Part shown: one piece after another, positions 1,682-22,081 of the stretch
Position numbering within the stretch: the first letter of the stretch is position 1
Layout: the number at the start of each line of letters is the position of its first letter
Origin: a virus
Reading direction: 5' to 3' (one strand)
DNA: 22,770 nucleotides
IMG/VR virus record: IMGVR_UViG_3300036403_000009
Coordinates: 1 to 22,770 of that record
The notes under the pieces: model-generated
The model's input: only the letters and a program-made list of their open reading frames with translations
Told to the model about the DNA's origin: nothing
Database searches by the model: none
Made by a program: the position numbers and the translations under genes

Positions 1682-1693
1682 CCTTGTGGATAA

Positions 1694-1710
1694 GTGGCAA
1701 CGGTTGCCAC
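1694..1710. promoter_or_regulatory. 17-bp perfect palindrome, candidate operator/parS-like site (copy 1)
   Basis: GTGGCAACGGTTGCCAC: two 8-bp arms around a central G, in the gap between the last structural gene and the early operon. The same 17 bases recur at 8648-8664 inside the ParB-like gene. With one central base it cannot form a normal RNA terminator loop, and no T tract follows, so a dimeric DNA-binding protein is the more natural reader. The best candidate in this window is the ParB-like protein (8191-9063). That pairing is inference. Confidence 0.6.
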
Positions 1711-1786: not shown

Positions 1787-1815
1787 TTGACTCACGGCGA
1801 TTCTGGCCGATGATG
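1787..1815 (+). promoter_or_regulatory. Candidate early promoter (weak)
   Basis: TTGACT at 1787-1792 is a good -35-like hexamer. A 17-base spacer leads to ATGATG at 1810-1815, a poor -10. The region also contains the AT-rich stretch 1764-1787, which stands out from its surroundings. A promoter is expected here because the long early operon starts at 1856 and the preceding gene ends at 1681, but the exact hexamers are uncertain. Confidence 0.3.
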
Positions 1816-1855: not shown

Positions 1856-2080
1856 ATGAGCAATCAAATCCGCATCCAGTCTGACCTTTACGCGCACGCT
1901 CGCGCGCTCGGAATCAAGATCACTACCTGCTGCGATCGCCTCGGCTTCGGTGCGCCATGCATTCGCGCCGACCAGTTGCCGGCCGTGCTTGCCCGGAAGG
2001 CCGAATCGATCGCTGCCGGGACTCGCAAGGTCGAACTCCGCCGACTCCGCAAGTCGATCCGGAACGGAGGCCGCGCGTGA
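1856..2080 (+). CDS. Small protein of unknown function, first gene of early operon
   Basis: 74 residues, starting at the ATG at 1856 behind AAAGGA (1841-1846). An in-frame ATG at 1817 would put the leader hairpin in coding sequence and has no clear ribosome binding site, so I reject it. The sequence has a CC pair and a further Cys in its middle (TTCCDRLGFGAPCIRADQLPAVL) and a basic C-terminus. The segment 'ARALGIKITTCCDRLGFGAPCIRADQLPAVLARK' reads like a small helical fold, possibly DNA-binding. No family is recognised. Its last codons carry the GGAGG ribosome binding site of the next gene, and its stop overlaps the next GTG. Expression is likely governed by the leader hairpin upstream. Confidence 0.7.
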   Translation: MSNQIRIQSDLYAHARALGIKITTCCDRLGFGAPCIRADQLPAVLARKAESIAAGTRKVELRRLRKSIRNGGRA

Positions 2081-7671: not shown

Positions 7672-7694
7672 TTCGGTTCCTGTTTCTCTCCCGT

Positions 7695-7724
7695 GCTTCG
7701 CGTCGGTGACAATCGGCGCGAAGC
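7695..7724 (+). other. Stem-loop after the annealing-protein gene
   Basis: An 8-bp perfect stem GCTTCGCG/CGCGAAGC with a 14-base loop sits 24 bases after the ERF stop. No T tract follows, so it does not meet the intrinsic-terminator pattern. It could protect the mRNA 3' end or act as a Rho-type or processing signal. Confidence 0.4.
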
Positions 7725-8150
7725 CTTCAAAGACTAGACCGCGCTCGGCGGTGCGCCTCCGCGAACGAGGCCCGAGCAAAGCAGCACGGGCGGCTCTGTA
7801 GGCCCGAGGAGATACGAGGATCGGTTCGCCTTCCGCACTTGTGCGGGGCAGTCCGTGCGACCAAGCGCGCCCGGATCGAGAAGCGAGTCGAGAGTCTTCC
7901 GCGCTGACCACGCGGGAGCCAGGTGCACTCGATGCACTTGGGGAGAGGCCAAGTCCTACCCGCGCCGATGTCCCGGCCAGACAGGATGAGAGACTTGGCA
8001 CGCGCAAAGGCGACGGCGACGGCGACGAACAGCAGTCCCCAACCACGCGCGACTTGAGGAGACTTGGGTCGCGTGGCTCCGGCTCTGGCTCTGAACAGCA
8101 GTAGTAGTAGGAGACACATCGGGAGCAGTCGTGTAGAGTAGGGATCGCGT

Positions 8151-8187
8151 CGTGCAGGATGCACGAGGCATAGCACCACAAGGAGAG
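8151..8187 (+). promoter_or_regulatory. GGA-loop hairpin and ribosome binding site of the parB-like gene
   Basis: CGTGCA GGA TGCACG (8151-8165) is a 6-bp stem whose loop is GGA. It is followed by ACAAGGAG (8178-8185), the ribosome binding site of the gene starting at 8191. ACAAGGA fits the ACARGGA core of the CsrA consensus, and the two GGAs are 25 nt apart. The same 15 bases are a DNA palindrome, so an operator reading is the alternative. Confidence 0.4.
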
Positions 8188-8190
8188 ACC

Positions 8191-9063
8191 ATGCCGGAAC
8201 GGATCGCACTATCGAAGATCGTGTTGGACGCAGGAACGCAGATGCGCGAGCGGATCGATGAGTCCGTGGTCGCCGAGTACGCCGAAGTGCTCGACCAGTT
8301 GCCGGCGGTTGCCGTGTACGCGGTCGGCCGTCGGTTCGTGCTCGTCGATGGATTCCATCGGTACTACGCGCACTCGCGCGCGGAGGCTCGAGACATCCTC
8401 GCGACGGTGATCGGCACGGGCACGATCGAGGAGGCGCAATGGATCGCGTGTGCGGCGAACGCCACGCACGGCCTGCGGCGGTCGAACGAGTCCAAGCGAC
8501 TGGCGGTCGAGGCCGCGCTCCTGCTCCGACCTGGCGCGAGCGACCGCGAGGTCGCCGCCCATGTCGGCGTGAGCCACACGATGGTCGCCAAGATGCGCCG
8601 CTCGATCGACGATGCCGCGAGCGGTAAACCTATCGAAGCCGATAGGAGTGGCAACGGTTGCCACTCTTACGGGGTCGAGGAGGATTTCCACGCCGACGAG
8701 GTCGATGACACCGAGCCGCTAGGAGGCGATCTGGAGCCTTCCGAGTCCGAGGCTCCCGTAGGGCCACCCGTCACGCTCGACGAGCGCATCGCGCACGCAC
8801 GCGCCCGGATCGGGGTGCTGCTGAAGGGACTGGAGCGGTGGCGCGCCGAGGCCGACCGCATCGCCGCCGAGGAGGCCGGATCCGGCATCCACATCGGGAC
8901 GATGGATCAGTACTGGCGCGACCTCCGGCTCTCGATCGACCGCGCCCGGCCGGCGGGGCCGTGCCCCAAGTGCAAGGGCGGCGGATGTCCCGCCTGCGGC
9001 GACCTCGGATGGATCTCGAAGATGCGCGCCCAGGTGCTGCGCGGGATCGGAGGCGACCAATGA
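8191..9063 (+). CDS. ParB/Srx-domain DNA-binding protein with C-terminal zinc knuckle
   Basis: 290 residues, ATG at 8191 behind AAGGAGAG. Residues 1-75 are a ParB N-terminal (ParB/sulfiredoxin) domain, with IALSKIVLDAGTQMRER and the phosphate-binding-like signature DGFHRYYA (53-60). Residues 100-140 hold the helix-turn-helix (SDREVAAHVGVSHTMVAKMRR). An acidic linker and a helical segment (about 196-225) follow, then CPKCKGGGCPACGDLGW, a DnaJ-like pair of CxxC knuckles likely binding zinc. No ParA ATPase is in the window, so this is more likely a phage ParB-like transcription or DNA-organising factor than part of a standard partition pair. A 17-bp palindrome lies within its own linker codons (8648-8664) and again ahead of the early operon, making it the prime candidate to bind both. 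Confidence 0.82.
   Translation: MPERIALSKIVLDAGTQMRERIDESVVAEYAEVLDQLPAVAVYAVGRRFVLVDGFHRYYAHSRAEARDILATVIGTGTIEEAQWIACAANATHGLRRSNESKRLAVEAALLLRPGASDREVAAHVGVSHTMVAKMRRSIDDAASGKPIEADRSGNGCHSYGVEEDFHADEVDDTEPLGGDLEPSESEAPVGPPVTLDERIAHARARIGVLLKGLERWRAEADRIAAEEAGSGIHIGTMDQYWRDLRLSIDRARPAGPCPKCKGGGCPACGDLGWISKMRAQVLRGIGGDQ
8646..8666. promoter_or_regulatory. Palindrome copy 2, inside the parB-like gene
   Basis: The 17-base core GTGGCAACGGTTGCCAC at 8648-8664 is identical to 1694-1710. Here the symmetry extends two more bases on each side, giving 21 symmetric positions around G8656. It falls in codons 152-159 (peptide SGNGCHS) of the ParB-like protein, in the linker after the helix-turn-helix, where sequence constraint on the protein should be low. 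Confidence 0.6.
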
Positions 9064-19714: not shown

Positions 19715-20794
19715 ATGAGCGAGACTCGACACCGCGAAGCGTTCCTTCGCTACCTCTCACGCGGCCCCGCCGCGATCAGCAGCGAAGACGCGCGCACGCT
19801 CCACGAACAGCGTGGCGTGCAGACCGCGAGCCTCACGCCCGAGGCGTGGGCCTCGTTCTTCACCGAGTCGATGCAGACCTCGTGGGTGCTCGGTCGCGTT
19901 CGCAAGGTCGATGTGACCTCGAACAAGTTGACCGTCACGCACTACAACGAGAACATCGAGACGCAGGATCGGATCTCGTACGATCAGGAAGGCGCACGCG
20001 CGGACATCAACGGCACCTTCGAGTTGCCGCGATGGAAGAAGTCGGGCGGATCCGTGCCGACGAACTACGACCTCGAGTACGAGAGCCGAGCGATCACGCT
20101 GCACGATGTCGGTGTGAACATGATCGTCTCGAAGGAACTGATCGAGGAATCGATCGGGAGCGTGAGCGCGGAGACCGTGCTTCGCGACTTCCTGATCCGG
20201 AAGCTCCAGACCGAGATCGAGCGGCAGATCCTCGTCGGCGATCCGTCGATCAACACGAACTCGCGCAAGGAGATGCAGGGCATTTGGAACTACCCGCTCT
20301 ACAAGGCTCCTTCAAGCGTCTACGCCGAAGGGAATCAGGTAGTCGATGATGCGAGCGGCGCGTCTGGCGGCGTGATCTCTGGGCTTCCTCGCCTTGAGAT
20401 CGTGAGCCGGATCATCCGTCCGTCCTCGTACGGTAATGCCGTGTGGGTCGTGGCGCGCGCCGCGTCGATCTCCGAGGTGTTCATCACGAGCGGAGTCGGA
20501 AGTAATCACTCGATGCAGACCGGAGCATCGGACTCGTACGGCTCGCTCTTCAATCGACCGATCTACGGGATGCCGTACACGAACTACCAAGGCGACGCAG
20601 ACGCTACGGGCGACCGTCTCGCGCTGCTCGTCGATCTCTCCAAGTATGTGCTAGCGATGCACACGAGCGGTCTCCAGGTGGAGCGGCTCAACGAAGTGCG
20701 CGCAGCGACCGGACAAGTCGTGCTTCGGGCATCCGTCCGCGTGGGCGGGAACATGATCGACCCCAAGTCGCTCATCTGCCTGAAGGCCAACTAA
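19715..20794 (+). CDS. HK97-fold major capsid-like protein 1 (no long scaffold domain)
   Basis: 359 residues, ATG at 19715 behind GAGGATAAGGA. The order of segments fits the HK97 capsid fold: a short N-terminus (AFLRYLSRGP...EDARTLHEQRGVQTASLTPEAW), the E-loop/spine region (FELPRWKKSGGSVPTNYDLEYESRAITLHDVGVNMIVSKELIEES), the long helix (ETVLRDFLIRKLQTEIERQILVGD), the A-domain (AVWVVARAASISEVFI) and the terminal RVGGNMIDPKSLICLKAN. The delta domain usually preceding the fold is reduced to about 50 residues without coiled coil. A second, full-length capsid gene lies 24 bases downstream. It could be a minor (pentamer) capsomer, an alternative capsid protein or a partner in mixed capsomers. Confidence 0.8.
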   Translation: MSETRHREAFLRYLSRGPAAISSEDARTLHEQRGVQTASLTPEAWASFFTESMQTSWVLGRVRKVDVTSNKLTVTHYNENIETQDRISYDQEGARADINGTFELPRWKKSGGSVPTNYDLEYESRAITLHDVGVNMIVSKELIEESIGSVSAETVLRDFLIRKLQTEIERQILVGDPSINTNSRKEMQGIWNYPLYKAPSSVYAEGNQVVDDASGASGGVISGLPRLEIVSRIIRPSSYGNAVWVVARAASISEVFITSGVGSNHSMQTGASDSYGSLFNRPIYGMPYTNYQGDADATGDRLALLVDLSKYVLAMHTSGLQVERLNEVRAATGQVVLRASVRVGGNMIDPKSLICLKAN

Positions 20795-20818: not shown

Positions 20819-22081
20819 ATGAACGGTGATACTTACAAGGGACTCGTCGAGAAGATGGGTGCCCTCTACGCGGAGATGCAGGAGATGGTGGCAGGCATGG
20901 AGGGCGCGACCGAAGAGGCCGCCGCCGAGATGCAGGCCAAGTACGAGGAGAAGAGCAAGCAGTACGACGCGCTCGCCAAGCGTCGCGACATGATCGCCGA
21001 CCTGAACGCGCGCGCCGCCAAGGGTTCGCACGGCGTGGTCGTGGTCGAGCGTGAGGCTCCGGCCCGCGTCGAGACTCGCTCGTTCGCTCCGCAGATCGGC
21101 GAGCAGTACGAGATGCGGTTCGCCGACTACCTGAAGAACGGCCACCGCCGTGACTTCGACACTCGCGCGATCGCCGCAGGCTCGGGCGACGGCCAGTACC
21201 TCCCGTCGGCCGGCTTCTACGCGCAGTTGCAGAAGAGCGTGGAGTTCGAGACCGCGATCTACAACCTCTGCCGAAAGATCGATGTCGGCAACTTCACGAC
21301 CAACTTCACGCTCGAGGGCGACTTCATCTCCGACCAGATCGACGGCGAGGGATGGCAGGGCGAAGCGGGTGCGGTCGATGAATACACGCCGACCTTCACC
21401 AACACGACCTTCACGGGCAACTCGCTGCGCCGCGTGGTCAAGGTCTCGCGCGAACTCGTGCAGGACGCTCCGGCTCGCGGTGCTGACTTCAGCGTCGAGA
21501 GCATGGTCGCGCAGCGCATGGGTCGCCTCTTCGGCCAGTCGATCGAGTACCAGTTGTGGCACGGCAACGGCACGAACAAGCCGCAAGGTCTGAAGAACGC
21601 CTCGCTCACCGCTACCGAGCTCGCGACCGACGGCACGCTCACCTCTGACGAACTCATCAACTGGGTCTACAGCCTGCCGATGAAGTACCTGAAGAGTCCG
21701 TCGTGCGCGATCGTGACGAGCCAGTCGTTCCTCACCGCCGTCCGCAAGTTGACCGAGAAGGTCGTCGGCACGGGCGGTCACTTCAGCACGCCGTACCTCT
21801 GGGAGCCGTCCTTCCAGGCGGGCACGCCCGACCGTCTGCTGGGAATCCCGGTCTATGTCACGCCGTGGGCACCCGCGCTCGGCAATGTCAACGACCAGAT
21901 CCACGCGGTGATCGGCGACTTCCAGCACATGGTTGTCGCGCAGCGCACGGGCATGAGCGTGCAGGTTCTCAACGAACTGTACGCCGGCAACGGCCAGATC
22001 GGCTACCTCGGCGAGATGCGCCTCGACGCGAAGGTCGTTCGCAGCGATGCCTTCCGCGCTCTCAAGGATGACAACACTTGA
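20819..22081 (+). CDS. HK97-fold major capsid protein 2 (with delta domain)
   Basis: 420 residues, ATG at 20819 with a strong AAGGAGG (about 20809-20815). Residues 1-70 form the acidic coiled-coil delta domain (VEKMGALYAEMQEMVAGMEGATEEAAAEMQ...), the built-in scaffold that prohead protease removes. The fold follows: YLPSAGFYAQLQKSVEFETAIYNLCRKID, EGWQGEAGAVDEYTPTFTNTTFTGNSLRRVVKVSRELVQDA, MGRLFGQSIEYQLWHGNGTNKPQGL, a P-domain and RLDAKVVRSDAFRALK at the end. It is more typical of HK97 than the gene before it. A strong intrinsic terminator follows, suggesting high expression of this gene as the main shell protein. Confidence 0.92.
   Translation: MNGDTYKGLVEKMGALYAEMQEMVAGMEGATEEAAAEMQAKYEEKSKQYDALAKRRDMIADLNARAAKGSHGVVVVEREAPARVETRSFAPQIGEQYEMRFADYLKNGHRRDFDTRAIAAGSGDGQYLPSAGFYAQLQKSVEFETAIYNLCRKIDVGNFTTNFTLEGDFISDQIDGEGWQGEAGAVDEYTPTFTNTTFTGNSLRRVVKVSRELVQDAPARGADFSVESMVAQRMGRLFGQSIEYQLWHGNGTNKPQGLKNASLTATELATDGTLTSDELINWVYSLPMKYLKSPSCAIVTSQSFLTAVRKLTEKVVGTGGHFSTPYLWEPSFQAGTPDRLLGIPVYVTPWAPALGNVNDQIHAVIGDFQHMVVAQRTGMSVQVLNELYAGNGQIGYLGEMRLDAKVVRSDAFRALKDDNT

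Follow-up and report, generated by a model that had tools for sequence, protein, structure and literature searches.

A 17-bp palindrome, GTGGCAACGGTTGCCAC, is present twice in the 22,770-nt stretch of viral DNA analyzed here (IMG/VR record IMGVR_UViG_3300036403_000009, positions 1 to 22,770; hereafter the window), once between genes and once within the gene for a ParB-like protein. This raises the question of whether the encoded protein reads both sites, and what such binding would be for.

Two palindrome copies in the window

As the initial annotation had claimed, both copies are exact (1694-1710 and 8648-8664) and symmetric, one lies ahead of the early operon and the other inside the ParB-like gene, and there is no third. 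None was found in the window at up to 3 mismatches, and about 0.08 matches are expected in shuffled sequences, which bears out the view that the repeat is not expected by chance. Both copies are perfect dyads, and the second extends to 21 bp. Four perfect dyads with arms of at least 8 are present in the whole window, two of them being the identical sites 1 and 2. The features referred to below are as follows.

1685..1693, minus strand: DnaA-box consensus TTATCCACA, abutting site 1 (1 match versus 0.02 expected)
1694..1710, no strand assigned: site 1, GTGGCAACGGTTGCCAC, between genes and 5' of the early operon; a predicted second target for the ParB-like protein
1787..1814, plus strand: weak sigma-70-like promoter match (TTGACT, 16 nt, GATGAT), a consensus match only, downstream of site 1 and ahead of the first early gene
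1856..2080, plus strand: first early ORF downstream of site 1
8191..9063, plus strand: ParB-like gene, 290 aa, with a ParB/Srx-type N-domain, helix-turn-helix (HTH), disordered linker and helical C-terminal part with a CxxC..CxxC motif
8572..8598, plus strand: codons for residues 128-136, the recognition helix SHTMVAKMR, which covaries with the palindrome across the family
8646..8666, no strand assigned: site 2, GAGTGGCAACGGTTGCCACTC (17-bp core 8648-8664), predicted cognate site, embedded in the codons of the linker that follows the HTH and translated as ..SGNGCHS..

Site 1 is located 12 bp past the stop codon of the preceding gene (1352-1681) and 145 bp ahead of the ATG at 1856. Site 2 covers the codons of residues 153-159, on the margin of the disordered linker, and lies some 50 nt past the last recognition-helix codon. 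The same two sites recur exactly in each of three close relatives (G003, G004, and G005), with an inter-site distance of 6.6 kb in G003 and 6.1 kb in G004 compared to 7.0 kb in the window. All 17 bp were invariant at every column in 11 site-1 and 6 site-2 haplotypes, and the flanks varied at 7-15 of each 60 columns; the count for site 1 is biased because its haplotype set was partly recruited by the motif, and the site-2 set is recruitable by the protein alone.

The DnaA box next to site 1 is perfect and the only one in the window; its version in L012 reads TTATCAACA. Its position beside a ParB-like site makes a replication origin possible there. A near-dyad, GTCGGGAATGGATCCCGAC, is found at 1821-1839, just 5' of the ribosome-binding site of the first early gene, and its counterpart in relative G002 (L468 near 2082) is perfect, GTCGGGAATGATTCCCGAC; it may represent a second, different operator or a leader element.

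Elsewhere in the window, the ERF gene and the ParB-like gene are separated by a 519-bp gap (7672-8190) that contains diverged direct repeats; the region is otherwise densely packed with genes. The HK97-type major head family phrog_10 is matched by two successive ORFs (19715-20794, E 1.6e-8; 20819-22081, E 1.4e-54), possibly reflecting a second capsid or head-decoration gene beside the main one. The ParB-like gene is followed by one small gene and then a ResIII helicase; in phage MW202545 (L532) a type I R-M-like gene lies directly 3' of the ParB-like gene, a gene order possibly shared with the window.

The ParB-like protein

The AF2 model of the window protein has high pLDDT over residues 1-144 (N-domain and HTH), disorder at 154-187 and a helical C-terminal part. 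Profile and fold searches grouped it with ParB, Noc, PadC, and KorB, with Foldseek matches to Noc (7nfu, 2e-7), ParB (6sdk), and KorB (8qa8), VIA Z values of 12.2 for ParB and 11.9 for KorB (8qa9, over 147 residues), and a match of 4e-14 to PHROG 1033, "ParB-like partition protein"; in a Pfam scan no family reached E 0.01. By the model and these searches, a ParB/Srx-type N-terminal fold is followed by an HTH, as in ParB-CTPase-fold proteins. Distant plasmid homologues are annotated as "streptomycin biosynthesis regulator"; pathway regulators of the StrR type activate antibiotic genes via a long, spaced inverted repeat.

The ParA-binding motif LG-K/R-GL is absent from the 290-aa protein. No ParA-type ATPase (PF13614) was detected in the window, G003, G004, and G005, which may be fragments, or in the complete MW202545 genome, and the control genomes were positive in 14 of 14 cases. 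Orphan phage proteins with the ParB-CTPase fold, encoded outside parAB operons and carrying varied fusions, have been surveyed (PMC12704722); they belong to the same protein class as that of the window, but the main text of the survey contains neither "palindrom" nor "operator."

Palindromes embedded across the family

IMG/VR, whose contigs are mostly fragments, was scanned for the exact 17-bp motif and for its 15-bp core. Most exact matches came from close relatives of the window or were chance-like, and they were not taken as evidence; several lay in structural genes rich in Ala/Val/Thr (VATVAT). The core was also found in unrelated ParB-like genes just after the HTH (L042, L197, L233, and L161), between the N-domain and the HTH (L011 and, twice, L030) and upstream of the ParB-like gene (L021). 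It is read in different frames, as VATVA in L042 and L197 and as GNGC in L233 and L161 (VATVAT or SGNxCHS peptides), so the constraint is on the DNA and not on the peptide. Among 84,980 bacterial and archaeal genomes the exact motif occurred at 92 loci, and with five family seeds no ParB-like gene was found near any of the loci searched; the motif is therefore not a general chromosomal operator.

A family set of 146 non-redundant IMG/VR relatives was recruited by the N-domain plus HTH protein only, with the motif left out. In a linker window of 148 nt (-18 to +130 nt relative to the HTH end), a perfect dyad with arms of at least 8 (at least 16 bp) was present in the codons of 66 of the 146 genes, compared to a mean of 2.7 and a maximum of 7 in 30 synonymous-codon shuffles. 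These linker dyads numbered 73, of which 66 were odd (one-base center) and 7 even, and the remainder of the family genes held 10 such dyads in 117 kb. The rate of odd dyads was 3.1 per kb in the linker versus 0.04 per kb outside the family genes on the same contigs (1.34 Mb). The best dyads (arm of at least 7) were distributed over the three reading frames as 37, 23, and 12. Near-dyads (10 pairs, up to 2 mismatches) were present in 26 of the 74 genes without a perfect arm-7 dyad versus 10 of 146 in a control stretch. Altogether, a dyad, perfect or near, follows the HTH in about two thirds of the 146 genes, and 48 genes, including the closest distinct relative L244, have neither kind in the linker.

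The dyad sequence varies from gene to gene, e.g., TCACTGCGGAAATTCCGCAGTGA, CTCACTTGTAACGGTTACAAGTGAG, and TATCTTGCAAAGTTTGCAAGATA. When dyads were selected solely on their outer arms, the pairs at 1, 2, and 3 from the center were complementary in 78, 88, and 97%. Such complementarity up to the center would fit a dimer on duplex DNA, unlike the loop of a hairpin. Some family genes carry two dyad copies 33-99 bp apart. In L304 (near 3484) the ParB-like gene contains a 41-bp perfect palindrome, GTATCAGACTGCCCTGCAACCGTTGCAGGGCAGTCTGATAC, and a second, shorter dyad 45 bp further.

Embedded dyads, often even, were also found in a more distant QLGRRN-type ParB-like subfamily, some members of which are methyltransferase fusions, and are rarer there (10 of 39 ORFs at arms of at least 7, chance ones included). 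Long dyads between the N-domain and the HTH, several of them even and up to 32 bp, were seen in L477, L478, L498, L503, and L504 of this type. Several plasmid homologues, from Acaryochloris and Gloeothece, showed no perfect dyad.

Covariation of the recognition helix and the site

Half-sites were compared with the aligned protein in 64 genes with an odd dyad. The Mantel correlation was 0.436 between site and helix, 0.03 between site and N-domain, and 0.436 in the partial test (permutation P about 5e-4, the minimum that 2000 permutations allow; largest permuted r 0.15). Single helix columns were associated with single bases, column 132 with base -1 (z 19) and column 130 with base -5 (z 16). T132 occurred with A at base -1 in 31 of 32 genes (Fisher P 1.7e-12) and F132 with C at base -1 in 19 of 20. 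T132 combined with an acidic column 130 gave CGGAA in 14 of 17 genes, with [DN]H GGGAA in 4 of 4 and with HH GCGGA in 3 of 3; N-domain identities within the CGGAA group go down to 33%. In leave-one-out prediction with neighbors restricted to less than 60% N-domain identity, 4.4 of the 6 half-site bases were right via the nearest helix compared to 2.7 via the N-domain (P 3e-9). Relatedness was thus handled by both the partial Mantel test and the identity-limited prediction.

The rule was obeyed by named records outside the set in which it was found: Candidatus Chlorohelix plasmids (THTFV with ..AAC and NEITV with CGACA), Rhodovastum atsumiense (DEGTV with CGGAA), and phage MW202545 (SQSFV with AGTC). 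The window helix SHTM goes with CAAC, like most SHTF genes and the SHEF gene. An exception is the divergent L246, which has the helix core SHTM of the window but TTGCAAA and not TGGCAAC.

A search of relatives for the motif had been suggested as a check on the binding of both copies. The close relatives G003 to G005 carry it, but it is absent from L244 and L245, whose N-domain is 60% identical to that of the window protein and whose helix is different. Presence of the same motif in relatives is the wrong refutation test, since a change of helix should bring a change of motif.

Copies outside the gene

The complete 57-kb genome of phage MW202545 has eight exact copies of the dyad TACTAGTCWGACTAGTA: two within the ParB-like gene (10.2 kb), one each at 0.07, 27.6, 34.0, and 43.6 kb, and two at 49.1 kb. 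These dyads lie both between and inside genes, some of them in a tail fiber gene or between late genes and not at promoters, so not every site can be explained as a simple operator. Contig G006 has five copies of its dyad, and G010 three exact copies and one with a mismatch. A dyad with the core GTGTAGTCGGACTACAC is located 221 bp upstream of the gene start in L329; in the related L252, whose helix is similar, this core lies inside the gene. In the stretches examined, a second copy beyond the own gene was found in 3 of 72 members and most had the embedded copy only; the embedded copy is therefore the common state and extra copies are optional.

Interpretation and alternative explanations

Very likely, the encoded HTH has its cognate site in the embedded dyad and, in the window, a second target in site 1, because of the covariation of helix and site, the named relatives that follow the rule and the copies in MW202545. 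The proposal of the initial annotation that a ParB-like protein binds both palindromes is thus strongly supported at the level of base-by-residue covariation with the recognition helix; the role it gave to this binding, control of the early operon or organization of the phage genome, stays a suggestion. The covariation suggests that a dimer would bind with each half-site read by a recognition helix. By analogy with ParB, Noc, and KorB, the protein would most likely load at its sites as an NTP-gated clamp, which is proposed because the N-domain and HTH fold is common to all three. From the loaded sites it may silence early transcription and replication or set their timing, or it may organize phage DNA. 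With a DnaA box at its side and the first early gene downstream, site 1 fits the control of early transcription or replication, and genome organization is the better fit for the scattered sites of MW202545. Taken as a whole, we consider it probable that the palindrome is the parS- or operator-like cognate site of the ParB-like protein, with clamp loading and a function in silencing, timing, or DNA organization.

A purely autoregulatory operator or roadblock in the gene, with site 1 as an ordinary repressor operator and neither clamp nor genome organization, is a possible but doubtful reading. It agrees with the single copy that most members have in their own gene, with the position of site 1 before the early operon and with the upstream dyads of L329 and L021, but the dyad occupies a fixed spot deep in the gene, away from the promoter, the MW202545 sites extend to late and tail fiber genes, and the protein has a ParB clamp-type fold. 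That fold, together with the multiple dispersed sites of some phages and the parS known inside the ParB-type gene of ParT (PMC12260392), would also suit a canonical ParABS system, in which the sites are parS and a plasmid-like prophage is partitioned with a ParA. We regard this as unlikely, given a protein that lacks the ParA-binding motif and the lack of a ParA-type ATPase in the window, its three relatives, and the complete MW202545.

Two further readings are less probable still. Palindromes can be perfected by template switching, and such repair or a mobile palindromic element could have left the paired copies seen in some genes, but neither would explain why bases -1 and -5 track two particular helix residues or why a different sequence sits at the same place in each gene, and we give this little credence. 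Long perfect dyads in transcripts are able to form hairpins, yet an RNA element in the mRNA of the ParB-like gene (hairpin, attenuator, or terminator-like) is highly improbable: the hairpin was rejected on the complementarity of the center pairs, as pairing reaches the innermost positions of odd dyads with a 1-nt center, and both the covariation of the dyad with the HTH helix and the copies outside the gene speak against it. The cognate site of the ParB-like protein remains the preferred reading.

Comparison with known systems

Chromosomal parS is nearly invariant across bacteria. The chromosomal ParB/Spo0J-parS and Noc-NBS systems resemble the phage family in the N-domain and HTH fold and in their palindromic, dispersed sites, but here the site varies from gene to gene and no ParA was found. 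Mycobacteriophage repressors have dispersed stoperators, many short operator copies around the phage genome, which are alike in number and spread but go with another protein fold and are not by rule embedded in the repressor gene. KorB of plasmid RK2 is a CTPase clamp with the ParB fold and an HTH; it loads at short operators (OB) and silences near and far promoters (PMC11790492). It is the best structural match to the window protein over the N-domain and HTH (8qa9), but it has one operator type upstream of its target promoters. In the phages, site 1 of the window lies before the early operon, and sites in MW202545 are partly in late genes.

An experimental precedent for the location of the site is ParT of Streptomyces plasmid SCP2, a ParB-like protein that has its parS, an inverted repeat of 18 bp, within its own coding sequence and binds it in ChIP-seq and BLI (PMC12260392). 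Site 2 and the dyads of the 66 family genes likewise lie within coding sequence. ParT is a single case in a ParABS-like partition system, and the sections of that report drawn on here do not describe a family-wide position, diversification, or a helix-site code (PMC12260392). No report of a family-wide, diversifying self-encoded site was found in targeted searches of open-access journal papers.

Significance

In this family the predicted target usually lies within the gene of its reader. DNA-binding specificity and target would thus be passed on and swapped as one, and they could diversify together. We lean towards the view that a widespread class of ParB-like genes in phages and plasmids forms self-contained specificity cassettes, in which helix codons and site lie about 10-130 bp apart, move together, and are linked by a residue-to-base code, sometimes with copies throughout the genome. 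By analogy, specificity and target would move as one unit, like immunity or incompatibility groups.

ParB-like genes are common in phages and mostly have no known target. Should the embedded dyad prove to be that target, a large share of these genes would reveal their binding site directly in their own sequence, and regulons or centromeres would be found by a simple search, as with the eight sites of MW202545. The natural diversity of the dyads would provide a directly testable HTH recognition code, and a DNA site carried in all three frames of a coding sequence would mean two overlapping functions in the same bases.
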